Shown in pieces: positions 17,715 to 49,555 of a stretch of 50,063 nucleotides of DNA. The stretch is from a virus. Position 1 is the first letter of the stretch; every line of letters starts with the position of its first letter. Under the pieces are notes generated by a model that saw nothing but the letters and a program-made list of their open reading frames with translations, was not told the origin of the DNA and made no database searches. Made by a program: the position numbers and the translations under genes. The stretch is taken from positions 1 through 50,063 of IMG/VR virus record IMGVR_UViG_3300028800_000915; one strand, given 5' to 3'.

Positions 17715-20700
17715 CTAGTTTCCTGAGACGATAAGATTGACGTTACCAGCGACCGGGCTCGCAAGCGAACCGTTGTAATAGGTGATCGTGACTTGTGTGG
17801 CCGTGATGCCAGATGCGCCGACGGCTGTTCCATTCGTGTCCGCCGGCGTGCCCTGCACGTTCGGAACATTGTGGAATGGTCCGAGCCCCAAGGCCGCGAA
17901 CGTGAACGTCGTGCCAATTGCTGAAACTGCCAGCGGTCCGACCGGCGTCGTGGTGAGCGGCGCGTCAACGCCGATGTCGAATTGCGAAAGCACTTGCGGC
18001 GCGGCCGCCGAGTCGATGATGCGCGCGTTATTGTATCGCGACGTGATGTAGCCAACCGTCCACGGGGCGTAGACGTTCGGGTCCGAGGCGCCCGTCAACC
18101 AGGTGTCGAGATAGGTCGAGAACGTCGGTCCGAGTGTGTTCCACGGCGCCGAATATCCGCCGACGTTGAAATAGATGCGCGACGCCGAGTTGAACCCTTC
18201 GTCATACGTCGGCGCGGTGTAGGTCGGGTTCGCGACGGGATTGAAGCCGCAATAGAGCTGAGAAAAGAGCGTGCACGAGCCCGCGAGTGTCAAACTGTCA
18301 GGCGTCAAGACGCCAGTATAGTGAAGCAGATAGCCGACTTTCGTTCCGAGCCAGTCCGGCTCCTGCTTCAAACTCGCGATCGTGGTATTCGAATTGATGA
18401 CGGTGACGTTGACGCTCGAGGCCGGTCCAACCTGGTTGGCGATATTGCGTCCACGGATGTAAACGGCCCATCCGCCAGGGGGAATGCCGACGGTAGTTTC
18501 GGCGGTTTGGCGCGATGCTTCCGTGAGAAGCGTCGCGGTGTTGACCGTTCCGCCGATCGGTCCATACAGAATGTCATAGCCCTTAATTCCCGCGCTCGTC
18601 AGGTCGGTCCATGAAAGCGCGAAGGCGTTGCCGTTTTGCGACGCGTTGAAATTCTGCACGGCCGCGGGAACCGGCGGACCGGCGATCGTGTGCGAATATG
18701 CCGGCACACTCGCGATGGATTGCTTTCCCGCGCCGTAGATATTGAACGAAACGAGCTTCACCCAAAACGTCTTGCCGATATCAGCCGGCGTGTACGGGAG
18801 CTGGAACACGCCAGAGTCCAGGCGGACGAATTGAGCGCCGATGGCGTGTGAAACCGGCGTAGAGCCCCATTGGCCGCGACGGAGATAGCCGGCGTGAGGA
18901 TAGCCTGGGTCTCCCACCTTCAGCGTGCCGAGCGAGTAATTGTAGGTCGCCGTCAGCGTCGCTTGCTGATAGGAAATGTATTCGCCGCCGTTGTCCGCGA
19001 TATAGCAGAGTGTGACGTCGTTATCCGCGTCAGACTTCGTGCCGCCATTGAGCACGCCGAATGATTTGCTGAGGTCGACGGAGATATTGCTCGTCGTGTC
19101 CGGATCGGTGCCGGCCGGCACGACGGCCGTGAGCAAGCCCATCTTCGACGGTCCGAACATGGTGCCGGATGAAAACGGATAGGTCGTGCCGTCCGTCGAT
19201 AGCCAAATTTCGCAACCGCCCCAATTGGGGTTCTGTGTCGCGGACATGGTTGCGAGCCATGATTCGAGCGTCGTCGCGCCCTGAGACAGCTGCACCGGGA
19301 CGTCGAAGATCGCGGGCGCCGCGGCGTTGCCAGGGTCGACGTTGAAATCCTGGATCAGCCCTTGTCCTGGCGTGAGCACGAAGGCCGGTGCCGCGCCGAT
19401 GGACCCGGGGAACTCCTCAGCGATGATGCTGATCGACCCGTCGTCATTTTCCTGAAGGTCCTTGGTGCGCACCGGAAGGTTGGAAATGCCAGCGAAATTC
19501 GGCTCCGTGAGCGCGACCACGTCCATCGGATCGAGCATGGAATAGCGAACGTCAACCTGGAATGAATAGCTGTTGAGGAGATATTCATCCTGGGCCTGCA
19601 TGTGCAGGGATGTTGTCGCCGCGTTGATATCACAGAAGAGGTGCAGCGATTTTGCCGAACCTGCGCGGCGGCCATATTGCTCAACAAGCGCCTGGTCGAC
19701 GTAGTGCACGATCGCCGGCGCGTACTGGTTGGCGCGATCGAGGACCTCCAGCTTGAGGTCATTTATCTGATCGCTCTTGCGCTTACGCGTGAGGACGACG
19801 GGATCACCCTGGTTGCTGGCAGAGTTCGCCATGAAATCGTCGACGGTGAGCGAGAACAATGCGGTGTTGACGGGCGAGTATGTCTTGCCGTTGGCGGTGA
19901 TGCCGACCGTGCCGCGCGGAATCATCTGAAGGACGCCGGAGGAAACGATGACCTCAGAGTAGGTTGCCAGCGCGATATCGTCGATATTCGTTGAACATGG
20001 CGAATACTGATCATAAGCCGGCGAAATCCAAAGCCCGTTGGCGATGGTGAAGTTTTGGTAGTTCACCATCGTCCCGACGGACGCATAATTGAGCTGGATG
20101 GCGTGACCTACCTGCGCGGCGTTGAACGCATAAACGCCGCCGCTCGTGAAGCTATATTGCCCCGCGCCAGGCGTGCCGGTCACGCATGTCAGCGAAACGC
20201 CGGCCGTCGCGTCGTAAACGCTCAGATTGTAGGAAAAACCGGACGCATTGTTGGCGGTGACTGACAGCGCGCATGTCCGCGCCTCATTGTTGTTCGTGAC
20301 CTGGCCGACGCTATTCGCGGCCATACCCATGCCGTAGACGGCGTTCGTGAGCATGTCCGGAACGACTTGGCTTGCATCAGCATCGCCGCCTGAGCGACAG
20401 CCGTTGCCGCCATAGGTTCCGGGCGCCGTGTTCTGCAGGAAGGCCTCAACCTCCCAATTCAGGTTCGGGAGGTTTGCCGACGCGCCGAGGTCGTAGTTCG
20501 CGGCCTCAACCGTGACCATGCCGCTATAGCCAAGAGAGTGGCCGGCATAGTTCGACAGATAGGACCAGGCGGCTTGACCGTATGCGCCGAGCGAGACAGT
20601 GAAGCCAGGCGTTCCAGCGCTGTGAGTTTGCGAAACCCAAGAGCTGTAGATACTTGAAATCGGACCTTCACAGAGAAGGCCGATGATCGAGGCGGTGTAA

Positions 20701-39857: not shown

Positions 39858-41645
39858 TTACAGGACCAGCAAACCCCGCTCTTCGTAAACAGAGCCGCCC
39901 GACCCGCCAGGGATCGTCGCAACGCCGATGCTCATGGCCAGGGAAACCATGCCGTCGATACGTCGCGTCGCCTTCTGCTTATCGAACATGCGATGGCCGG
40001 TGCGATTTTCGGCGTAGACCACGCCGCCGGCGCACATCGCCATGACAGGGTTCGTGTCGACCTCAATCCGGCCCTCGAGAAGCGCGGCTTCAGTCTTGTT
40101 GATCGAGTCAGGCATCCAGAGCGCGATTTCGTTCGCGCCGGCTTCCTCTGCCGCCTCTTCGTCCTCGCGCTTGCCGATCACGCGACGGTTGAAGCCCTGC
40201 GGATGCACCATGCACGGCAAAACGATGCCGGCTTGATCCAAATGGTCGGTCAGCTGCTCCAGGCCGTATTGGTCGGCGCCGATTTTCATCGGTGCATAGC
40301 GCGCGTTGAGATCCGCGAGCGCGTCAGCGACCCAGGGATATGAAATGCGCTTGCCTGGCACGGCTTCCATGAAGCCCTTGCTCACCCAAAGCTCATAGGG
40401 CGCGCGGTCATTTTTGGCGCGTTCCCGGAGCGTGTCAGCCGGCGTCCAGAACCATGTTTTTGAAGCGAATTTCCACTTGTCGATCGTCCAATCCAACACC
40501 CAGGTCAGCGTGAACGCGGTCAAGTCCCGCGTGCGGGACAGGTCAAGGCCGCCGAAGCACTCGTAACCCTTGGCGCTGAGCTCGTCCGGGTCCAGCTTTC
40601 GCTCCGCGGCGATCCAAAGCCGCTTCGGGATTGCAGAGCTCTCGCTCTCCGTCCACTGGCAGAAGTTCAATCGGCGGGTGAGCCCTTCTTTCGAAGGCAT
40701 ACCCTTGGCTTCCTCGACCTGTTCGCGGATGTACGGAAGCTGAATTGACACTCCGATGTTCGGATTTGCCTTGATCCAGCATGTTTCGTCATCGAAAGGC
40801 TCGTCACCCTCGTCCAGGGAGGCGATATAGCCGAACCAGGCGTCATTCGGTGTCTCGCCGGTCACAACCTCGACCGTGTAGTCATGCTCCTGGCCGCAAA
40901 CGGTTTTCTTGTCGAAGCCGGAGTTCGTGATTTCGAAAATGAGCGCTTCCTGGTTGCCCTTCGTGCCGGCGCGCATCATTTCAATGATCGTGTTGTCCGG
41001 ATGCTCGTGAACCTCGTCGATCAGCACGCAATAGGGTCGCGGACCGCTTTTGCCCTTCTTTTCCGCCGATATCGGTTTGAAAAAGCCGCCGAGAGCGTTG
41101 CTGAGCTCCCCGACCATCTTTTCGCCGTGCGCCGTGAGGCGCCGATGCAGCGCCGGGCTCCGTTCGTACATGGAGACGGCGTCGCGGAACAAAATGCGGG
41201 CCTGATCGAGCCCTGAAGCCGCTGAATAGACCTCCGCGCGATACTTACGTAGTCCCGAAAGCATGTAATGGCCGATACCGGCGGCCATCGGTGACTTGCC
41301 TGAGCCCTTCGCGACCTCAACGAAGGCGCGTCGGAAGCGTCGAAAGCCGAGTGAATTCTTCCAGCCGAAGAGCGAACCGACGATAAACGCCTGCCATGGC
41401 TGCAAAATGAACGGGATCACCTGGCTCACAACCTGGTTGAACTCGTCCTTTGCCTCAATTTCGACCGTCAGGACGTCCCGGAAGAAGCCAATCGCGCGCT
41501 CAGCGGCAGAAACGTCCCACAGAAGCCCGCGTCCAGGACCGTCAACCAGGTCCTTGAGGTGTCTCTCGCATGCTGCGCGCACATAAGGACCGGCGAGAAT
41601 TCGCTTTTGCGTGACCGCTTCGGCGTATTCAGTAACGGGATCCAT
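39858..41645 (-). CDS. terL: Terminase large subunit
   Basis: A 595-residue protein with a packaging ATPase and a nuclease. Walker A is VAKGSGKS (residues 111-118) and Walker B is CVLIDEVHEH with Asp210/Glu211. The RNase H-like nuclease has Asp368 in FGGLDLSRTRDLTAF and Asp374, and a third acidic site in KIGADQYGLEQL. LQPWQAFIVGSLFGW is typical of phage HK97-type terminases. It is the first gene of the leftward late operon and is divergent from the plus operon at 41748. The small subunit lies unusually far away. Confidence 0.93.
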   Translation of the reverse strand: MDPVTEYAEAVTQKRILAGPYVRAACERHLKDLVDGPGRGLLWDVSAAERAIGFFRDVLTVEIEAKDEFNQVVSQVIPFILQPWQAFIVGSLFGWKNSLGFRRFRRAFVEVAKGSGKSPMAAGIGHYMLSGLRKYRAEVYSAASGLDQARILFRDAVSMYERSPALHRRLTAHGEKMVGELSNALGGFFKPISAEKKGKSGPRPYCVLIDEVHEHPDNTIIEMMRAGTKGNQEALIFEITNSGFDKKTVCGQEHDYTVEVVTGETPNDAWFGYIASLDEGDEPFDDETCWIKANPNIGVSIQLPYIREQVEEAKGMPSKEGLTRRLNFCQWTESESSAIPKRLWIAAERKLDPDELSAKGYECFGGLDLSRTRDLTAFTLTWVLDWTIDKWKFASKTWFWTPADTLRERAKNDRAPYELWVSKGFMEAVPGKRISYPWVADALADLNARYAPMKIGADQYGLEQLTDHLDQAGIVLPCMVHPQGFNRRVIGKREDEEAAEEAGANEIALWMPDSINKTEAALLEGRIEVDTNPVMAMCAGGVVYAENRTGHRMFDKQKATRRIDGMVSLAMSIGVATIPGGSGGSVYEERGLLVL

Positions 41646-41673
41646 TTAGATGCGTTTTCCAGCAAAAAAGAAG

Positions 41674-41707
41674 TTGCTCATGATGCTGATGGGTGTACCG
41701 TACCCAT
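41674..41707 (+). promoter_or_regulatory. Promoter and operator for the second early operon
   Basis: TTGCTC (41674-41679), 16-bp spacer, TACCGT (41696-41701). The palindrome GGGTGTACCGTACCC (41691-41705), within the longer inverted repeat ATGGGT-N7-ACCCAT, covers the -10 box. The same spacing and GGGT-N7-ACCC palindrome occur at 44934-44967, which strengthens both calls. Transcription would start just before the hairpin leader at 41714. Confidence 0.6.
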
Positions 41708-41713
41708 ATTGAA

Positions 41714-41747
41714 GTTGCGTTGGCGCGCAACAAACCGCGAGGAACCC
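41714..41747 (+). promoter_or_regulatory. Hairpin leader element, copy 1
   Basis: Stem GTTGCG/CGCAAC (41714-41719 and 41726-41731) with loop TTGGCG, then AAACCGCGAGGAACCC and ATG. The last part contains the ribosome site GAGGAA. Compared with copies at 42580 and 44971, the stem bases change with compensation while the loop and ACCGCGAGGAA stay fixed. With the promoter placed at 41696-41701 the hairpin lies close to the mRNA 5' end. Confidence 0.7.
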
Positions 41748-41924
41748 ATGAACTACCGCATTGAAGCGGAAACCGCAAAACAACCCGAAACGCCGGCGCA
41801 TCCGGCCGTCGGCATGCTTATGCGCAGCGGCGCGACCGTCTACTACGCCCACTTCCGGGGCATGTACGTCGAAAGCCTCCAGCTACGCGCAATCGAAACC
41901 CTATTCGAAGGAGCTGCTCAATGA
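41748..41924 (+). CDS. Small hypothetical protein, first gene of the second early operon
   Basis: A 58-residue protein starting MNYRIEAETAKQPETPAHPA and ending LQLRAIETLFEGAAQ. It is mostly helical with a beta part in the middle (GATVYYAHFRGMYVESLQL). The start is fixed by the leader's GAGGAA; the frame is open further upstream but would run through the promoter. No family was recognised. Its stop overlaps the next ATG. Confidence 0.6.
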   Translation: MNYRIEAETAKQPETPAHPAVGMLMRSGATVYYAHFRGMYVESLQLRAIETLFEGAAQ

Positions 41925-42160
41925 GCGCACAAACTACCGCCCGCAAGGCCGCCGCGATGCGCGCCGTTCTCGCCGTGGTCCTGGAGGCCGTCAAAGCCGC
42001 CGGACCGCAAGGCGCGCCGGCCGGTCCAATGTATGCCGCGCTCATGGCGCAAGGCTGCACCCTGGATCAATTTCAGGCGATCATGGGCGCCTTGGTCAAA
42101 ACCGGCAAAGTCCGGGCGAGCGCCAATGGCGAGCTCTACACTTTCATTGCCGACCTTTAG
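41921..42160 (+). CDS. Winged-helix-like small protein
   Basis: A 79-residue protein starting in an ATGA overlap. The pattern is helix (ARKAAAMRAVLAVVLEAVKA), helix (APAGPMYAALMAQGCTLDQF), helix with QAIMGALVKTGKVRAS and a two-strand wing ending GELYTFIADL. This fits a small winged helix that could bind DNA or another phage protein. The target is unknown. It is followed by a strong AGGAGG site for the next gene. Confidence 0.55.
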   Translation: MSAQTTARKAAAMRAVLAVVLEAVKAAGPQGAPAGPMYAALMAQGCTLDQFQAIMGALVKTGKVRASANGELYTFIADL

Positions 42161-42169
42161 GAGGCCGAT

Positions 42170-42574
42170 GTGATCACGATCCACTTCAAAAGCATTGACG
42201 GATACCGCGGCCGCCGGAGCTTCAAAGCCTTGGCCGCTGCAAAAAAATATGCCGTGAAACTCGTGGGTGAGAACCCGGAAATCGGTTCATTTTACGCTGT
42301 GGCCGGCGACGGCGTTGTCCGGATAACCGCCGACGGCGCGAGGATAGCCGATCTTTTCCCACAACCCGAAGCCGCGCCACGCGCGCGACACTGCACTTGC
42401 GAGGTCTCCCAGGTTTACGGCGGCGACTGCATCCACACACTTGCGGGCGAAGAGGCGCGTCTCGAAAAAGACGCCGCGACATGCTTCTGCTCAGAGGTCC
42501 AGCTTAAAAATGTCGGCTGCAATTGTGACGCGCAGCCAAAACCGGCTTTCAATGACGATGACGTGCCGTTCTAA
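42170..42574 (+). CDS. Cys-rich protein with SSB-like C-terminal tail
   Basis: A 134-residue protein with a GTG start and TTAGGAGGCCGAT upstream. Residues 1-62 are a beta/alpha part (TIHFKSIDGYRGRRSFKALA, then VRITADGARIADLF). Residues 75-119 hold seven cysteines (CTC, C87, CFC, CNC) that could bind zinc. The chain ends FNDDDVPF, close to the DDDIPF tip by which SSB recruits replication and repair enzymes. There is no OB-fold pattern, so it may mimic or compete with host SSB rather than bind single-stranded DNA. That is inference. Confidence 0.55.
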   Translation: MITIHFKSIDGYRGRRSFKALAAAKKYAVKLVGENPEIGSFYAVAGDGVVRITADGARIADLFPQPEAAPRARHCTCEVSQVYGGDCIHTLAGEEARLEKDAATCFCSEVQLKNVGCNCDAQPKPAFNDDDVPF

Positions 42575-42579
42575 ACCCC

Positions 42580-42614
42580 TGGCTCTTGGCGAGCCACAAC
42601 CGCGAGGAAATCGA
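42580..42614 (+). promoter_or_regulatory. Hairpin leader element, copy 2
   Basis: Stem TGGCTC/GAGCCA (42580-42585 and 42591-42596) with loop TTGGC, then CAACCGCGAGGAAATCGA and ATG. No promoter-like sequence precedes it, so here the element is internal to the operon between two genes. The stem sequence differs from copy 1 at most positions but pairs perfectly. Confidence 0.7.
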
Positions 42615-42998
42615 ATGTCTAGCTGCTTTTTTTACAGTGCCGGCCCCGTGGCCTGCACCGAATGTGACTGGAAGGGCGACGCCGACGCCGGCGAGCCTAT
42701 TGCTGACGTCCAGGAGCGGTTAACCGCCGGCGACGTCATTGAAATCCCGTGTTGCCAATGCCCGGAGTGCGGAAGCCTCTGCATGATCGTGCGGCCGCCG
42801 GCCGAGCTGGACAAGTTTCTGGCGAGCGAACGGCTGCGCGAACGCGCGGACGAAGTGTTGGCCATACTGAAGCGCGCCGTTCCATGGCTGGCCAGGGCCC
42901 AGGTTGAGGGCGTGCACCTGACTTGCGCCATGCCGAATGACTTGGTGCGAACTCTTCAGCGCGCCGAGGCAATCCTGAAACAAATCGAAGGGAACTGA
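42615..42998 (+). CDS. Zinc-ribbon hypothetical protein
   Basis: A 127-residue protein. Cys14/Cys17 (ACTECDWKG) and Cys49/Cys52 (CCQCPECGSL) form a zinc ribbon, with more cysteines next to them. The rest is helical (LRERADEVLAILKRAVPWLA, RTLQRAEAILKQIEGN). The start is fixed by the leader's GAGGAA; the open frame further upstream overlaps the preceding gene. Function is unknown. It is one base before the methyltransferase fusion gene. Confidence 0.6.
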   Translation: MSSCFFYSAGPVACTECDWKGDADAGEPIADVQERLTAGDVIEIPCCQCPECGSLCMIVRPPAELDKFLASERLRERADEVLAILKRAVPWLARAQVEGVHLTCAMPNDLVRTLQRAEAILKQIEGN

Positions 42999-42999
42999 C

Positions 43000-44937
43000 A
43001 TGACCTACTTCACTGCTACCTATAGCCCGGATGACAACAAGCTCCGGCTTTACGCCACATCCCGCCTGGATTCGGAAACCTACGCCAAGGTGAAGGCCGC
43101 CGGCTTTCGTTGGGCGCCGAAACAGGACCTTTTCGTTGCTCCCGCCTGGACGCCGTTCCGCGAGGATCTTTTGACCGAGCTGGCCGGCGAAATTGAGGAC
43201 GAAGACAAGAGTTTGACGGATCGCGCCGAGGAGCGGGCCGAGCGTTTTGACGAATACCGCGACAAGCGCCTGGCGGATGCTGAGCGCGCGCGCGACGGCG
43301 TTTCCCGCATTGCCGACCACATCCCGTTGGGTCAGCCCATCCTGATAGGCCACCATTCCGAGAAACATGCGCGAAAAGACGCCGAACGCATCGAAAACGG
43401 CATGAGAAAGGCCGTAAAAATGTGGAAAACGTCGAATTATTGGAAATCCAGGGCTCTTGGAGCCATTCAACACGCGAAATACAAGGAGCTCCCGGCCGTC
43501 AGGCACCGCCGGATCAAGACGATCGAGGCGGACAAACGCAAGACTGAACGCTCGATAGCCATGCTCGAGAGCCGTTTGGCGGCCTGGACCGGGCTTCACA
43601 ACCTCCCCGAAGAGGCTCAACTGGCCGCGGCGATGCGTTTTGCGGACGCGGAATGGTCAAGTGTGCGGCTTTCAGACGGCACAATTGCCGATTCCACGCA
43701 TTCAGCGCTTCGTGACGGCAAGGTGACGCCGGCGGAAGTGCGCGAACAGCGCCTCAGGAGCCTCCCGGCGACCATCGCGCACCATCAGCGCTGGATTGAG
43801 CACCACGACAACCGCTTGGTCTATGAGCGCGCCATGCTGGCCGAGCAAATCGGCGCGGACGCGTCGACCAACCCCATGGCGGACCGTTTTGACCTCAAGG
43901 TCGGCGGCCGCGTCCTTTGCGACAACGCCTGGGTCGTGATCCTGAAGGTGAACAAGGCCGGCGGCGTCATAACCTCCGTGACGACGACACCGCCGCGCGC
44001 CGTGACCTGGCAACGGCACTGGAAGTATGGCGTCGAAAAGATCGCGGACTACCAGGCGCCGTCGGACGAGGACGCCGCCAAGGTAAAGGCCGCGACCGCG
44101 CTTCCGCCGATCTGCAACTATCCCGGCGCGGACTACATACCCATGCTGAAGGCCGATTGGGACAAAAAACACCGGGACTATAAATGCCTCCGGGTGATCG
44201 CCGCGACGGAAACGACGGGCGCGCACCGCGTGCGACGCGTCATGACCGGCGGATACAAGACCGGCTACGTGTTTCTGACGGACGTGAAAGTGGTCGAACC
44301 GCCCAAACCTACCGCCAGGCCTTCCCTGCCGGCCGCTGAGCGCGTCATGCCTTCAGAGTATGCGGCGCCACGGCCGCGCGAGGACCAGCCTCAGGACGCC
44401 GAATTTAAGGCTCTGCAGGACACTCTCAAGACGGGCGTCAAAGTAGTCGTGGCGCCTCAGCTCTTCCCCACGCCGGCCGCTGTGGCCGAGCGCATGGTGA
44501 AATTGCTGGAGCTTGAGCCTGGAGCTCGCCGGACCCTGGAACCTTCAGCCGGCACCGGCGTCCTGGCTGAAGCCGCGCGCACCGCCGGCGCCATGACAAC
44601 CCTCGTTGAAGTGAACTATGACTTGGCGCATCGCCTGCGCAATTCATTTGACGACGTGCACACGGCCGACTTTCTGAAGTGCACGAGCGCCGAGCTTGGC
44701 ATGTTCGACCGGATCATCATGAACCCGCCATTTGCCGGCCGGGCGGACGTTGACCACATCAACCACGCCCAAGGCTTCCTGAAGCCTGGCGGACGCCTTG
44801 TGGCGCTCTGCGCGGACGGTCCACGACAGCGCGCCGTGTTCGAACAGGTCGCAACCGCCTACATCCCGCTCGAGCCCGGCGCCTTCAAGGAACAGGGAAC
44901 CAACGTAAATGTAGCGATTGTCGTAATAGACGCTTGA
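43000..44937 (+). CDS. DUF3560 plus N6-adenine methyltransferase fusion
   Basis: A 645-residue protein. The N-terminal part resembles DUF3560: TYSPDDNKLRLYATSRLDSE, then AGFRWAPKQDLFVAPAWTP, a charged coiled coil and the basic stretch with HRRIKTIEADKRKTERSIAM. The C-terminal 160 residues are a class I methyltransferase with the SAM motif LEPSAGTG (513-520) and catalytic NPPF (575-578), the signature of amino (N6-adenine) methylation. The link between is basic and may bind DNA. The likely role is modification of phage DNA, perhaps against restriction. The downstream promoter overlaps its stop codon. Confidence 0.8.
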   Translation: MTYFTATYSPDDNKLRLYATSRLDSETYAKVKAAGFRWAPKQDLFVAPAWTPFREDLLTELAGEIEDEDKSLTDRAEERAERFDEYRDKRLADAERARDGVSRIADHIPLGQPILIGHHSEKHARKDAERIENGMRKAVKMWKTSNYWKSRALGAIQHAKYKELPAVRHRRIKTIEADKRKTERSIAMLESRLAAWTGLHNLPEEAQLAAAMRFADAEWSSVRLSDGTIADSTHSALRDGKVTPAEVREQRLRSLPATIAHHQRWIEHHDNRLVYERAMLAEQIGADASTNPMADRFDLKVGGRVLCDNAWVVILKVNKAGGVITSVTTTPPRAVTWQRHWKYGVEKIADYQAPSDEDAAKVKAATALPPICNYPGADYIPMLKADWDKKHRDYKCLRVIAATETTGAHRVRRVMTGGYKTGYVFLTDVKVVEPPKPTARPSLPAAERVMPSEYAAPRPREDQPQDAEFKALQDTLKTGVKVVVAPQLFPTPAAVAERMVKLLELEPGARRTLEPSAGTGVLAEAARTAGAMTTLVEVNYDLAHRLRNSFDDVHTADFLKCTSAELGMFDRIIMNPPFAGRADVDHINHAQGFLKPGGRLVALCADGPRQRAVFEQVATAYIPLEPGAFKEQGTNVNVAIVVIDA

Positions 44938-44967
44938 TCAGGAATACGGATAGGGTAGTATCTACCC
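44934..44967 (+). promoter_or_regulatory. Second promoter and operator of the plus operon
   Basis: TTGATC (44934-44939, overlapping the methyltransferase stop), 16-bp spacer, TAGTAT (44956-44961). The palindrome GGGTAGTATCTACCC (44953-44967) covers the -10 box as in the 41674 promoter. It would drive the 50-residue protein, ParB and downstream genes. The repeated layout suggests control of both by one repressor. Confidence 0.6.
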
Positions 44968-44970
44968 AAC

Positions 44971-45007
44971 GGTTGCTTTGGCGAGCGACCCAAACCGCGA
45001 GGAACCA
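44971..45007 (+). promoter_or_regulatory. Hairpin leader element, copy 3
   Basis: Stem GGTTGCT/AGCGACC (44971-44977 and 44984-44990, one G-U pair) with loop TTGGCG identical to copy 1, then CAAACCGCGAGGAACCA and ATG. It begins a few bases after the predicted transcription start of the 44934 promoter, as in copy 1. Confidence 0.7.
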
Positions 45008-45160
45008 ATGTTTACAAAAGACGAACTGGAAATGCTGAAAACCCTTTTGTTTGAAGAGGCTCAGCGCATGGACGACGACGGCAACGATGGCGCGTTTGAG
45101 GCCAGCCCCTTTGCCAAAATTTACGACAAGGTGTGCGCCGAACTGGAAGGTGCGAAATGA
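45008..45160 (+). CDS. Small acidic hypothetical protein
   Basis: A 50-residue protein starting MFTKDELEMLKTLLFEEAQR, a helix, followed by an acidic loop (MDDDGNDGAFEASPF) and a second helix AKIYDKVCAELEGAK. The start is set by the hairpin leader; a 10-codon upstream extension would read through the element. Its stop overlaps the ATG of the ParB gene. No family was recognised. Confidence 0.55.
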   Translation: MFTKDELEMLKTLLFEEAQRMDDDGNDGAFEASPFAKIYDKVCAELEGAK

Positions 45161-46044
45161 ACGCGCTCCCTATTGCCACCATCTGGCCGAATCCGGATCA
45201 ACCGCGCAAAACCTTCGACCCGGACCTGATCCGTGAGCTGGCGGCGTCCATCAAGGCTGAAGGCCTCCGCCAGGCCATCCTTGTCCGCCCGCGACCCGCC
45301 GGCGGTTATGAAATCGTTTTCGGTGAACGCCGTTGGCGCGCGCACTGCCTTCTGACCGACCAGGGCGTCCCTGGCTTCGCGGCGATCAACGCCGAGGTCA
45401 AGGAAATGACCGACCGCGAGCGGGACGTCACGGCTATCGTTGAAAACCTCCAGCGCGCCGACGTGAAGCCGCTCGAGGAAGCCCGCGCCTTCCGCCGCCT
45501 GGTCGACCAGGGCATGACGGTTGAGGAGCTGAGCGTCGCCACGGGCGCGACGCGGTACAAAATCGAATGGCGCCTCCGGCTTCTTGGCCTGGCGCCTGAG
45601 ATTCTCCGGCTCTACGAGACCGGCAATATCGACCTTCAACAGGCGACGGAGATTGCCAGGCTCCCGACGGAGGCCGAGCAGCGTCAAATCCTGACGAAGA
45701 TCAACCGCGGCCTGATCGTCGGCTGGCGCACCCTGCACAATGCGATCGACGCGATGCTGGACACGGAGAAAGCCGCCGACCTGTTCGGTGACATGACCGT
45801 GAAGGCGACCAACGAAGAGTGCGCCGTCCTAAACCGCATGGAGCGTAAGATCGAAAGCGTCGTGCACATGGTTGCGGCCGGATGGGACGACGGCGAATGC
45901 GTGATCGCCGCCAAGGTCTCCCGTGACCGGTCCAATACGATGGCCGAAAAGATTGCGCTGATCCGCCGGAGCCTGACCCGGATGGAAAGCGACTTGCGTC
46001 ACCTGACAGCCCAGGCGTCAATCGTTCTCGAGAAGGTTGCGTAA
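45157..46044 (+). CDS. ParB/Spo0J-family protein
   Basis: A 295-residue protein with the ParB pattern: an N-terminal segment PNPDQPRKTFDPDLIRELAA, the nucleotide-binding signature GYEIVFGERRWRAH (residues 50-63), the conserved TAIVENLQRADVKPLEEARA, then a helix-turn-helix (MTVEELSVATGATRYKIEWR). The C-terminal 100 residues are helical. No ParA gene was seen in the window. ParB proteins bind CTP and centromere-like DNA; here it may act in partition, replication control or gene regulation. It overlaps the preceding small gene. Confidence 0.8.
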   Translation: MNALPIATIWPNPDQPRKTFDPDLIRELAASIKAEGLRQAILVRPRPAGGYEIVFGERRWRAHCLLTDQGVPGFAAINAEVKEMTDRERDVTAIVENLQRADVKPLEEARAFRRLVDQGMTVEELSVATGATRYKIEWRLRLLGLAPEILRLYETGNIDLQQATEIARLPTEAEQRQILTKINRGLIVGWRTLHNAIDAMLDTEKAADLFGDMTVKATNEECAVLNRMERKIESVVHMVAAGWDDGECVIAAKVSRDRSNTMAEKIALIRRSLTRMESDLRHLTAQASIVLEKVA

Positions 46045-46047
46045 AGT

Positions 46048-46104
46048 GGCCGGCGGGCTTGGCGTCCCGCCGGCCTGGAGCGGGTTCTTCCCGGGCCCGC
46101 GAGG
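46048..46104 (+). promoter_or_regulatory. Intercistronic hairpin, possible diverged leader copy 4
   Basis: GGCCGGCGGG (46048-46057) and CCCGCCGGCC (46066-46075) form a 10-bp perfect stem whose 8-base loop contains TTGGCG. CCGCGAGG follows at 46097-46104. Both words are conserved in the three leaders, but here about 24 extra bases separate them and the ATG is 35 bases further on. No T-run follows, so it is not a terminator. Confidence 0.4.
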
Positions 46105-46138: not shown

Positions 46139-46357
46139 ATGCTGGACGGCAAACGCGAGCAAAACCGGGACATTCTCCGCAATATGATCGTGGACAACCA
46201 TTTGACCCGCCAACAGACGGCGGACCTGCTTTATCAGAGCATTCACACGCTCAACGCCTGGCTAAAACCGGCGACCTCTAGTAGTTCAAACCCGGCGCCC
46301 AAGTGGGCGATCGAGCTCTTGGCCTACAAGCTGGCCGACCCGGCGGTGAAACGATGA
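46139..46357 (+). CDS. Small helix-turn-helix protein
   Basis: A 72-residue protein with AAGCGGAG upstream of the ATG. Residues about 20-45 (HLTRQQTADLLYQSIHTLNA) form a helix-turn-helix, and WLKPATSSSSNPAPKWAIEL leads to a C-terminal helix. This pattern occurs in small phage regulators. The gene follows the structured gap 46045-46138 and overlaps the next start by 4 bases. It could be the repressor of the operon's paired operators, though nothing shows this directly. Confidence 0.6.
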   Translation: MLDGKREQNRDILRNMIVDNHLTRQQTADLLYQSIHTLNAWLKPATSSSSNPAPKWAIELLAYKLADPAVKR

Positions 46358-46791
46358 AGGCATACAACGGCTTCTCTGGCGAACTGCGAAACAAAGCGCA
46401 GGCATGGCTGCGCGCCGAGTGGGCGGCTGGCCGTCTCGCGCGGCCGGCCAAATGCTGCGCATGCGGCCAGGACAAGGGTGTCATTGACGCTCATGCCGAG
46501 GACTACAGCCTCCCGTTCGCCGCCGGCAAGACGGATGAATTCCACCTCTGTTTCATTTGCCATATGATCGTGCATTGCCGCTTCCGCAATCGCACGCATT
46601 GGGACCGATATCGTGAAACCATCCGCGCCGGCGGACACTTCGCGCCGTATTTCAGCCGTCAATTCGGTCGTTTTGTAGCTGAGCACCTTGACGGGCCCGA
46701 CCTCTTCGCCAGGGCGATGGTCGGCTTCGTACCAGGTGAAACTCCGGCCCGGCTGGTTCTGGACGAAATTGATCAAAAGACACGCTGGTAG
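46354..46791 (+). CDS. HNH-like zinc protein
   Basis: A 145-residue protein with a metal-binding arrangement like HNH proteins: Cys34 to Cys37 in KCCACGQDKG, the DAHAEDYS motif with His47, and LCFICHMIVHCRFRN with Cys66/Cys69, His70 and His74. WDRYRETIRAGG follows. It matches a phage protein type whose nuclease activity is uncertain. The start overlaps the stop of the HTH gene. Its 3' end overlaps the oppositely oriented methyltransferase by 19 bases. Confidence 0.6.
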   Translation: MKAYNGFSGELRNKAQAWLRAEWAAGRLARPAKCCACGQDKGVIDAHAEDYSLPFAAGKTDEFHLCFICHMIVHCRFRNRTHWDRYRETIRAGGHFAPYFSRQFGRFVAEHLDGPDLFARAMVGFVPGETPARLVLDEIDQKTRW

Positions 46792-47330
46792 CTGACAGCG
46801 CCGGTACGCTTCACTTCCCTGAAGTAGCCCGAGACGAGCTCGACTTCTTGGTCGATCGACGAAAGCGCATTGGTCGCCCGCGGCGTCGGCACGCGCCCCT
46901 CAATGAAAAGCTCCTTCACGCCAACGCCCCCGAGAAGCGCGACGAATTCGCGGCCGAACTCCAGGTCATCCCCGAAGAGCTCCGGAAACACGCGGCGCGC
47001 GAGCACGACGTCAATTCGGTTCTCCGCGACGATGGTGATCACCGCGTCGCATGTTTCACGTGAAACAGTTAACGCATAAAAATCCACTGGCACGCCGGCG
47101 ACTTCCGCCATGCGCACCACGGCCTCGTCGGCCTCAATGCCTACCGCGTGCGTCGTGAGCCCGTTTTCTTTGAACACGCGGGCGCCTAGCAGGCCGAAGG
47201 AACAGCCAAGGTCGAGCACGCGTGAGCCCGTCATGTTCGCGATGGTCGCGGCCGCCATGGCGTCGTGGATCCGGGGGAACGTCTTGTTCGCCCGCCATTC
47301 CGCCAGGTGATTTTGATCGTCGAACCTCAC
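46773..47330 (-). CDS. Class I SAM-dependent methyltransferase
   Basis: A 185-residue protein. Motif I is RVLDLGCSFGLLGARVF (residues about 37-53), and AVGIEADEAVVRMAEVAGVP carries the acidic residue that binds the SAM ribose. The later part (VLLGGVGVKELFIEGRVPTP) fits the remaining sheet. No NPPY or PC motif marks it as a DNA base methyltransferase, so the substrate is open. The start is GTG in a GTGA overlap with the ParB-like gene, so it is translated with the PAPS-reductase-like cassette. Confidence 0.75.
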   Translation of the reverse strand: MRFDDQNHLAEWRANKTFPRIHDAMAAATIANMTGSRVLDLGCSFGLLGARVFKENGLTTHAVGIEADEAVVRMAEVAGVPVDFYALTVSRETCDAVITIVAENRIDVVLARRVFPELFGDDLEFGREFVALLGGVGVKELFIEGRVPTPRATNALSSIDQEVELVSGYFREVKRTGAVSYQRVF

Positions 47331-47839
47331 GCCTTGGCCACCTCGGCCGGATACCAGGCTTTCGAATAGCGATAGTCCTTGATGTTTTTCATCTTGAACA
47401 CGCCGTCCTGGTAGAGAAGGTCGACCTCGTCCTTGGTCGCGCCAATTTCAATCGCGACCTCCTGCGGATCGCACTTGTGAACGTCGATCAGCTCCCGAAC
47501 AATTTCGGACATGCGCACGGCGACGTGACTGCCCTTGGCCCGGTTCATGCGGATCGTGAAGATCATGGCCTGGTCGCGCGCGATATCCAGTACCGCGCAG
47601 GGAACCTTGCCGGCGTAGCGCTTCAGTAGCGGCGCACTCTCGAGCGCCAGGCGCGAGCGGTGGAAGCCGTCAATGATCGTGCCGTCCTTGGTGATCAGGA
47701 TCGGCTGCACCCATCCCGTGAGGAGCAAGGACCGTTCGAGAAGCCGGAGCTCCGGCGTGAATACGACGTTCGGGTTGTAATCGTTGGCGTTTAGCGTCGC
47801 CGCGTCGCGCCATTCAATCGCGGAAATCGGATCGTTCAC
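47327..47839 (-). CDS. ParB/IbrB-like nuclease-domain protein
   Basis: A 170-residue protein. The ParB-type fold is read from LNANDYNPNVVFTPELRLLE, SLLLTGWVQPILITKDGTII and the signature DGFHRSRLALE (residues 57-67). The C-terminal 70 residues are helical (ARDQAMIFTIRMNRAKGSHV, ATKDEVDLLYQDG). Stand-alone ParB proteins beside a PAPS-reductase-like gene are known as IbrB and IbrA in other bacteria. The GTG start overlaps the partner's stop (GTGA), as expected for coupled translation. Confidence 0.7.
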   Translation of the reverse strand: MNDPISAIEWRDAATLNANDYNPNVVFTPELRLLERSLLLTGWVQPILITKDGTIIDGFHRSRLALESAPLLKRYAGKVPCAVLDIARDQAMIFTIRMNRAKGSHVAVRMSEIVRELIDVHKCDPQEVAIEIGATKDEVDLLYQDGVFKMKNIKDYRYSKAWYPAEVAKA

Positions 47840-48912
47840 GCCCTGGCCTTTTGCTGAGGGAGAATCTCTCGTTTGAAGCTGCCCGCCATGAAGGTTGAAA
47901 GCAAATACCGCGGCGGATAGAGGTCCGGGTTTTTCATGGCGCGGACCATGACGTGCTCGAACTTCTTGACCGCCATGTCGTATTGGCGGTCCTCCGTGAT
48001 ATTCTCGTCAATCCAAAGCCTTACGCCTTCGTAAGTCTGCCCGTATTGCAGCTGAAGCGCCTCGCGGTCCAATTCCTTGAAGTAGCGCTCATGCGCCAGC
48101 ATTTCCGGAAAGACCTTGGTCACTCGCTGGTAGAAATCCGGGACGGTCGTTTTGATCAGGTCGAACTTCTTGGCGGATTCGGCGTGCAGCGGCGTTGAAA
48201 CCCGGAGGCTCTGGCCGGCCCACATTTGCAGGTCATAGAGTTTGCAGTACCGAATGTCCCGGTCAAAGAAGTACCGGAAAATGTCGTTTTCTTCCCAATC
48301 AAACAACGGCTTGCAGAGCTTGACGTTCGAGGCTCGCGGGTCCGTCACGCCGTTGATGTAGTTCTCGTTCAATTTGTTAACGCAAGACCGGAACCGAATT
48401 AACGATTCACTCGATCGCACGCCGGTGAGGAAGGCAATCTTCCCGCGGTAATGCTGCGCGGTGAAGCCGTCCATCGAATACTGATCGAAAACCCGATCGT
48501 CGCCAGGCTCGAGCGATATCCCCCACGCCGGCTTCTCGCGCACCCAGGCGCGCGCCGGGTCCCATTGGACATAGGACCGGCAAACCCCGAGCACATACTT
48601 GGTCGACGCCAGCGGCACGGTGAACCAAAGCATCTTGATCCACGGCAACTGGCGATAGCCGTCAACGAAGTTGATCACTTCGTCAGGAATGAGCTCTTCA
48701 TCGCGGAACACGACGTCCAGCGGCTTGGTGATGCCGCGCTCCTGCATGACCTCGCGGACCAGGTGCAGCGTGGCCAGGCTGTCCTTGCCGCCGGAAAACA
48801 TGACCACGACGGTGTCGAAAATGTCGAAGATATGATGGATGCGGGCCCGCGCTTCCGTCAGGACGTCCGTCTCAATGTAGACCTTGACCCTAGGCACGGG
48901 CGGCGCCGTCAA
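47836..48912 (-). CDS. IbrA-like PAPS reductase-family (PP-loop) protein
   Basis: A 358-residue protein with the PP-loop SGGKDSLATLH (residues 40-50) preceded by a hydrophobic strand. LDVVFRDEELIPDEVINFVD and RQLPWIKMLWFTVPL follow, then IAFLTGVRSSESLIRFRSC, the segment that contacts sulfonucleotide in PAPS reductases. The LFDWEENDIFRYFFDRDIRY part is also family-typical. It lacks the ECGLH motif of true assimilatory enzymes. IbrA-type proteins are of uncertain function; a nucleic acid or nucleotide modification role is inferred. The start is TTG at 48912 or GTG at 48897; neither has a clear ribosome site. Confidence 0.75.
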   Translation of the reverse strand: MTAPPVPRVKVYIETDVLTEARARIHHIFDIFDTVVVMFSGGKDSLATLHLVREVMQERGITKPLDVVFRDEELIPDEVINFVDGYRQLPWIKMLWFTVPLASTKYVLGVCRSYVQWDPARAWVREKPAWGISLEPGDDRVFDQYSMDGFTAQHYRGKIAFLTGVRSSESLIRFRSCVNKLNENYINGVTDPRASNVKLCKPLFDWEENDIFRYFFDRDIRYCKLYDLQMWAGQSLRVSTPLHAESAKKFDLIKTTVPDFYQRVTKVFPEMLAHERYFKELDREALQLQYGQTYEGVRLWIDENITEDRQYDMAVKKFEHVMVRAMKNPDLYPPRYLLSTFMAGSFKREILPQQKARA

Positions 48913-49555
48913 GGAACAGCGCCAGGCGCGCGCCGAGCGTCTCCTCGTCCGGGTGCATGATCTTCAGCCGCTTGAGAAACGCGAACCAAGCGGCTTGCTG
49001 AGCTTCGTCGTCAAACACGATATTGAACTGGATGATCGACTTCATCGGCCGCGGCGGTCCGTCCTCATGCGCGTTTGTGGTCGCTGTGAGGGGAACCAGG
49101 CGGGCTAGTTCCTTTTCGTCAAATCCCAAATCGTCCAGGTTGACGCCGGCGAGCGTGAGGTCCCCGAGCTCCTGTCCCAGGAGATCCTCGTCCCACTCAG
49201 AATTCAGTGCGAGCTTATTGTCCAGGACCGCGAAGGCCCGGCATTGCTCCTCGGTCCAGCCCTTCGCGACGATGACGCGCGCCGTGGCGAACCCCTCGTG
49301 TTTCATGGCCTCCAGGCGACCGTGTCCCGAAATCAGCGTGCCGTCCTCCTTCACCAGGAGCGGCCATACCTGGCCGAACTTGCGCATGGAGCTGCGCAAA
49401 TCCTCAATTTGCTTCTTCGGGTGCTTCCTGGCGTTGCGGACGTTCGATTTGATCCGCTCGACCGGCCATTCCTCGACGGTATAGGCCGGCATGGCCGGCG
49501 GCGCGCCGGCGCGTCTACGAGTTGAAATAGCGCTCTGTTTTGTCAAACGGGTCAC
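48890..49555 (-). CDS. ParB-like nuclease-domain protein next to the small terminase
   Basis: A 221-residue protein. The N-terminal part has VEEWPVERIKSNVRNARKHP, IEDLRSSMRKFGQVWPLLVK and the signature GTLISGHGRLEAMKHEGF (residues 72-89). WTEEQCRAFAVLDNKLALNS follows, all typical of phage ParB proteins found beside terminase or DNA methylase genes. The first 21 residues, from a GTG at 49555, overlap the small terminase by 41 bases; an internal ATG at 49492 is an alternative start. In related phages this protein may be fused to a DNA methylase; here it stands alone. Confidence 0.75.
   Translation of the reverse strand: MTRLTKQSAISTRRRAGAPPAMPAYTVEEWPVERIKSNVRNARKHPKKQIEDLRSSMRKFGQVWPLLVKEDGTLISGHGRLEAMKHEGFATARVIVAKGWTEEQCRAFAVLDNKLALNSEWDEDLLGQELGDLTLAGVNLDDLGFDEKELARLVPLTATTNAHEDGPPRPMKSIIQFNIVFDDEAQQAAWFAFLKRLKIMHPDEETLGARLALFLDGAARA

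Follow-up and report, generated by a model that had tools for sequence, protein, structure and literature searches.

The whole of the IMG/VR viral record IMGVR_UViG_3300028800_000915 (50,063 bases, hereafter called the window) was analyzed, and three of its genes were found to be preceded by copies of the same short hairpin leader, here termed type A. Type A is composed of a stem closed by the loop UUGGC(G) and followed by the tail ACCGCGAGGA, and in the window it is located 4 to 6 nucleotides (nt) upstream of the start codons at 41748, 42615, and 45008. The element is well supported as a selected RNA structure and is very probably a so far undescribed RNA control signal of the genes it precedes.

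All three copies lie on the plus strand. In copy 1, the hairpin occupies positions 41714 to 41731 (GTTGCG - TTGGCG - CGCAAC, loop at 41720-41725) and the tail ACCGCGAGGA, which contains the Shine-Dalgarno sequence GAGGA, positions 41734 to 41743; the open reading frame (ORF) it leads (41748-41924, plus strand) encodes 58 amino acids and is without Pfam or PHROG match. Copy 2 (hairpin 42580-42596, TGGCTC - TTGGC - GAGCCA, loop 42586-42590; tail 42599-42608) leads an ORF of 127 amino acids (42615-42998, plus strand), and copy 3 (hairpin 44971-44990, GGTTGCT - TTGGCG - AGCGACC with one G-U pair, loop 44978-44983; tail 44994-45003) leads one of 50 amino acids (45008-45160, plus strand). Each of the three hairpins is followed by ACCGCGAGGAA and then by the start codon. 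An initial annotation of this DNA had described the three-copy element from the sequence, and its stems and loops are present at these sites as described. In the whole record, there are three exact matches to the loop-plus-tail pattern, all on the plus strand, and none to the reversed pattern used as a control. A further candidate, GGCTCTTGGAGCC at about 43453-43465, was dropped as a copy, being located within a coding gene and lacking the tail. Each window hairpin is the predicted minimum-energy fold, with a folding energy that is unexceptional for its base composition (z of about -0.7). Because folding energy alone is ordinary, the case for a selected structure rests on covariation.

Viral and genome contigs were scanned by pattern and the hits filtered for stems beside the loop, which delivered 22 additional type A copies, at most five per record, from ten further viral records and one metagenome-assembled contig (L017, 2; L038, 1; L039, 3; L071, 1; L074, 5; L102, 1; L134, 1; L156, 4; L208, 1; L293, 1, with L294 being the same sequence; L298, 2). 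Every one of them precedes a start codon. The initial annotation had made its claim of selected RNA structure depend on compensatory stems in copies from elsewhere, and the claim survived this search: when 24 copies from 11 records were aligned (leaving out L102 and two degenerate copies), all seven stem pairs showed changes on both sides. The covariation score was 0.906, compared with 0.206 ± 0.041 for shuffled alignments, and it fell to 0.21 or less once the pairing partner was slid by one to three columns. Even where the downstream proteins are 85% identical, the paired stems differ widely (GGGCT/AGCCC vs GGCGACG/CGTTGCC). The main hairpin is predicted to form in its mRNA context (mean pairing 0.92). 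Copies are in sense with their gene, with 4 to 9 nt between AGGA and the start codon, and the distance from loop to tail centers on 9 nt regardless of stem length, the linker being rich in A (44 of 81 bases). Variable paired arms, a fixed loop, a single strand, and a fixed spacing to the ribosome site thus indicate a signal at the RNA level. Deviating copies include one with a stem of only 3 bp (L074, 3499), one with the tail ACAGCGAGGGA, in which AGC replaces CGC and the perfect stem is kept (G1:23409, L017 record), and one with a different loop and an unchanged tail (L298:1204).

As the candidates had been stem-filtered, a less biased count was made over the twelve records (318 kb), covering hairpins with six-base loops and stems of at least 6 bp. 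Among the 929 loop sequences in these 1,255 hairpins, TTGGCG was the commonest (25 occurrences), followed by its complement (24), with the next at 7; each record had been fetched for holding at least one copy, so that about half of the TTGGCG cases are independent. CGCGAGG followed within 54 nt of 24 of the 25 TTGGCG hairpins vs 17 of about 1,230 other hairpins. Furthermore, a stem of at least 5 bp was present in 2 of 93 chromosomal loop-plus-tail matches vs 22 of the 163 distinct ones from the earlier loci. A start codon follows all 22 stemmed matches, and the 33 matches that lack a start codon all lack such a stem as well, a comparison in which many loci had been fetched using patterns that required the start codon.

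A related fourth element, absent from the initial annotation, is located at 46048-46104 of the window and is here termed type B. Typically, type B is found soon after a stop codon and consists of a stem of 10 to 12 bp with a TTGGCG loop, about 20 nt of spacer, and then GCCCGCGAGG(A/G)C; CCCGCGAGG lies about 20 nt after the hairpin. In the window, a 10-bp hairpin (46048-46075, plus strand; GGCCGGCGGG - C TTGGCG T - CCCGCCGGCC) directly follows the parB stop codon, and the conserved GCCCGCGAGG occupies 46095-46104 (plus strand), where GCCC-GCGA-GGGC is possible with the next bases. No intrinsic terminator (a G+C-rich hairpin with a direct T run) was called at 46048-46075. The element sits between the gene for a ParB-like protein (ParB_N and HTH_ParB; 45157-46044, plus strand) and that for a small protein of 72 amino acids (46139-46357, plus strand), which is 53% identical to the helix-turn-helix (HTH)-like protein after the type B element of L156. 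Type B is present in 9 of the 12 records, the remaining three being fragments of 4 to 7 kb, and once more in a further contig (L562). Its stem covaries as well, at 10 of 12 pairs (score 0.667 vs 0.219). The seven type B elements with a clear downstream gene are followed by a small protein of 65 to 80 amino acids, most with weak helix-turn-helix or transcriptional-regulator matches. In L071 (G004, about 18430-18660), L134 (5800-6150), and L293 (4990-5450), a self-contained cassette made up of type A, a short ORF, and type B lies on the opposite strand between terminase-like and portal-like genes. The type B tails were first seen using the hairpin part of the model alone, when the tail was in no search pattern, and the link between loop and tail is therefore supported independently and is not purely an effect of the search.

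Copies 1 and 3 directly follow 15-bp promoter-like palindromes of the form GGGT-N7-ACCC (GGGTGTACCGTACCC, 41691-41705, and GGGTAGTATCTACCC, 44953-44967, both plus strand), which may also be operators. Palindromes of the form GGGTA-N5-TACCC with TATAAT-like centers also stand 5' of copies in L074, L156, and L298, and TTGACA-type promoter-like sequences are found just 5' of the copies in L039, L102, and L208. Given these predicted start sites, the mRNA would be expected to begin at the hairpin or close to it. Copy 2 is internal and has no such palindrome, and further internal copies occur in L074 and L156. The initial annotation was thus right in placing two window copies at the expected mRNA 5' end and one internally; its single operon gives way to a co-directional gene block with two promoter-proximal copies and one internal copy. 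Within this block, the 127-amino-acid ORF is followed by an ORF of 645 amino acids with DUF3560 and DNA methyltransferase-like domains (43000-44937, plus strand). Among the genes downstream of the copies are Amidoligase_2, DUF6011, an ArdC-like antirestriction protein bearing MPTase-PolyVal, and DUF2958. In the parts of the sources drawn on here, ArdC and domains related to it are described as occurring in conflict proteins of phages and plasmids (PMC5512222, PMC7213743). By their predicted functions, the downstream genes suggest early, defense-related expression.

We slightly favor the view that the element is a cis-acting RNA operator through which a trans-acting factor sets the translation, and perhaps the stability, of early and anti-defense genes. 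Here, the stem would need only to pair, while loop and tail would be read together by the factor, which would be a protein or, less likely, an RNA and would be either host-encoded or widely shared. The factor would set the access of ribosomes to GAGGA, and at the 5' end the hairpin would also protect the mRNA. A factor that stabilizes CC-GCGA-GG would hide GAGGA and lead to repression, and one that holds the tail open would lead to activation. In several type B elements, the tail CC-GCGA-GG is predicted to be closed inside a larger hairpin. Type B would give the same factor a second target, serving as feedback on the small HTH-like gene or as a sponge. More tentatively, a phage RNA regulon can be imagined in which one RNA-binding factor, most likely host-encoded, reads the UUGGCG hairpin and CCGCGAGG on early and anti-defense mRNAs of unrelated phages, with type B as a dedicated feedback or sponge RNA. 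Variable stems would allow many copies per genome without long repeated DNA.

Several points weigh against an operator read by a factor. Most copies were fetched by exact patterns, which makes the conserved loop and tail a partly circular finding. The mini-hairpin CC-GCGA-GG of the type A tail is predicted to be unstable alone (mean probability 0.11). No single gene or protein is common to all records, several of which are fragments, and a shared candidate for the binder is thus lacking among them. Finally, a plain structural role needs no factor, yet it leaves the fixed tail unexplained.

Such a structural role, in which a 5'-terminal hairpin delays mRNA decay and holds the ribosome site open while RNA stability and ribosome binding fix loop and tail, is rather unlikely. 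The stable hairpin, the A-rich linker, and the promoter-proximal copies, a few nt from where the mRNA should start, all agree with it, but internal copies exist in the window, L074, and L156, and stability demands neither a single loop sequence nor ACCGC ahead of the Shine-Dalgarno sequence. Moreover, type B repeats both loop and tail and needs no Shine-Dalgarno sequence.

It is improbable that the element works as a put-like antiterminator, in which the nascent RNA (hairpin and tail, or two hairpins in type B) would act on the RNA polymerase. To our knowledge, the putRNA of phage HK022 is not tied to start codons, and type A is found at a fixed short distance from the start codon and includes the ribosome site, neither of which antitermination needs. 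What speaks for this function is that type B has two predicted hairpins close to where a gene block ends and that copies recur along long blocks. The HK022 putRNA is likewise a cis-acting RNA element of a phage early transcript and, as far as the consulted part of its description goes, acts by RNA alone, but there it suppresses pausing and termination (PMC9378689).

The complementarity of GCG in the loop and CGC in the tail, seen in most copies together with an A-rich linker, would allow an H-type pseudoknot as a self-contained switch over the Shine-Dalgarno sequence, a reading to which we give little credence. In a preQ1-I-like comparison, linker length did not track stem length (rho -0.08), and the variant at G1:23409 keeps its perfect stem without the loop complement; covariation between loop and tail was not seen. 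The loop-to-tail distance centered on 9 nt, the A-rich linker, and the missing stem-linker correlation fit joint recognition of loop and tail better than a pseudoknot. Finally, a DNA-level element (a repressor site or hairpin promoter) is very improbable, despite the promoter-like palindromes adjoining several copies, as the arms vary freely with pairing kept, unlike DNA operators, internal copies lack the palindrome, the strand is always that of the gene, and the largest ORF is a tail protein of 1071 amino acids, so that the record encodes no N4-type giant virion polymerase.

Both halves of the proposed operator mechanism are exemplified in phage T4. The gene 43 operator of T4/RB69 is a small hairpin with a conserved loop 5' of the gene, to which a phage protein binds to control translation (PMC3014915), and the element described here likewise places a conserved-loop hairpin overlapping or adjoining the ribosome site; the operator differs in serving a single autoregulated gene rather than a set of genes in several phages and in its loop, UAAC. 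In the T4 RegA regulon, one phage factor acts on the start regions of about 30 mRNAs, but the RegA sites are without clear secondary structure (PMC3014915).

Among described features, the SAS/ESAS of cluster K mycobacteriophages come closest. They were reported in 2011 as a short conserved sequence that recurs in one phage directly ahead of the start codons of numerous non-structural genes, with an upstream inverted repeat at about half of the copies; in the parts of the accounts cited here, a role in translation is suggested and unproven (PMC3203893), and the function is still called unverified (PMC12699233). Repeated copies just 5' of the start codons of non-structural genes are found in both cases. 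However, SAS has a 13-bp consensus, GGGATAGGAGCCC, as opposed to the tail ACCGCGAGGA; ESAS arms are conserved around a variable spacer, whereas here the arms vary with compensation around a fixed loop; and SAS/ESAS belong to other phages, with no counterpart of type B in that part of their description. By the sequence features compared, the element is outside SAS/ESAS. Rfam 15 gave no credible covariance-model match at gathering or permissive thresholds, in line with the initial annotation, which could name no RNA family, and literature searches on the loop sequence or similar phage motifs returned nothing matching. We regard the element as a structured leader motif of phages that has so far not been described and is paired with a sister element.

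In phages without a common gene, accessory genes (for antirestriction, amidoligase, DUF2958, and small proteins of unknown kind) are tagged by this compact motif, which is not in Rfam and can be used now for locating such genes and cassettes. If it is true that a host factor reads the motif, this would show unrelated phages using one host post-transcriptional circuit. Through the motif, the role of start-associated phage repeats becomes directly testable.

By their structural genes, the carriers fall into two unrelated groups, one comprising the window, L071, L074, L134, and L293 and the other L017, L038, L039, L102, and L208; L156 and L298 are tied to the first group via accessory genes. Judging by its IMG identifier, L156 seems to derive from an isolate genome. 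In about 1,690 bacterial genomes, which were mostly alphaproteobacterial and comprised a Chloroflexota class, Alphaproteobacteria, four orders of the latter, and 30 mixed genomes, searches by covariance model and exact pattern revealed no true copy, only coding or stemless matches, with the large covariance-model searches scoring the top candidates per genome and part of the hit loci being fetched. A 35.8-bit copy in L208, a contig of a Thermomicrobiales metagenome-assembled genome (JADLCW010000359.1), was rejected as chromosomal; the contig is probably mis-binned phage DNA, because the other 60 members of the class have no copy and its genes match the L017 and L039 phages. When homologs of one downstream gene were followed to 50 other viral loci, the element was found only in a contig already known, and it is thus untied to that gene. 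For DUF2958 relatives on plasmids and phages, the four regions checked held no copies. The element appears to be rare and specific to its carrier mobile elements, and it appears to be shared through horizontal exchange or through a common host, not through the descent of whole genomes.

The hosts are probably Alphaproteobacteria, judging from the DUF2958 relatives as the best clue, an Rcc01698-like tail domain, and a parS-like site; in named phages for which a host is stated, these relatives were all from Alphaproteobacteria. Terminase relatives were uninformative on the host. Possibly, a hairpin before the ribosome site is a wider habit of alphaproteobacterial mobile elements. In a Salipiger plasmid (L674; 4001 and 5380) and a Phaeobacter plasmid (L677; 3998), hairpins with other loops were observed directly before A-rich ribosome sites of genes of these mobile elements. 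Roseobacter phage CRP-3 (L675; 1286, 2361, and 3006) has another start-associated repeat, CTAACTTGGAGA, before no fewer than three genes.

Some further features of the window were observed. At 41640-41690, as well as in L156 upstream of 1089, an A-tract and GTTGC stand about 20 bases before the palindrome, seemingly conserved between the promoters of different phages. The parS-like site GTTTCACGTGAAAC (47053-47068) lies within a gene near the phage ParB-like gene, and its core also occurs in L039 (G3:34506) and, imperfectly, in L102 (G6:8808) and L293 (G10:1513). Lastly, a PAPS-reductase-like gene on the minus strand (46773-49555) is 75% identical to an L156 gene and about 50% identical to Mycobacterium and Arthrobacter phage genes; in those phages, it neighbors a ParB-like nuclease gene.

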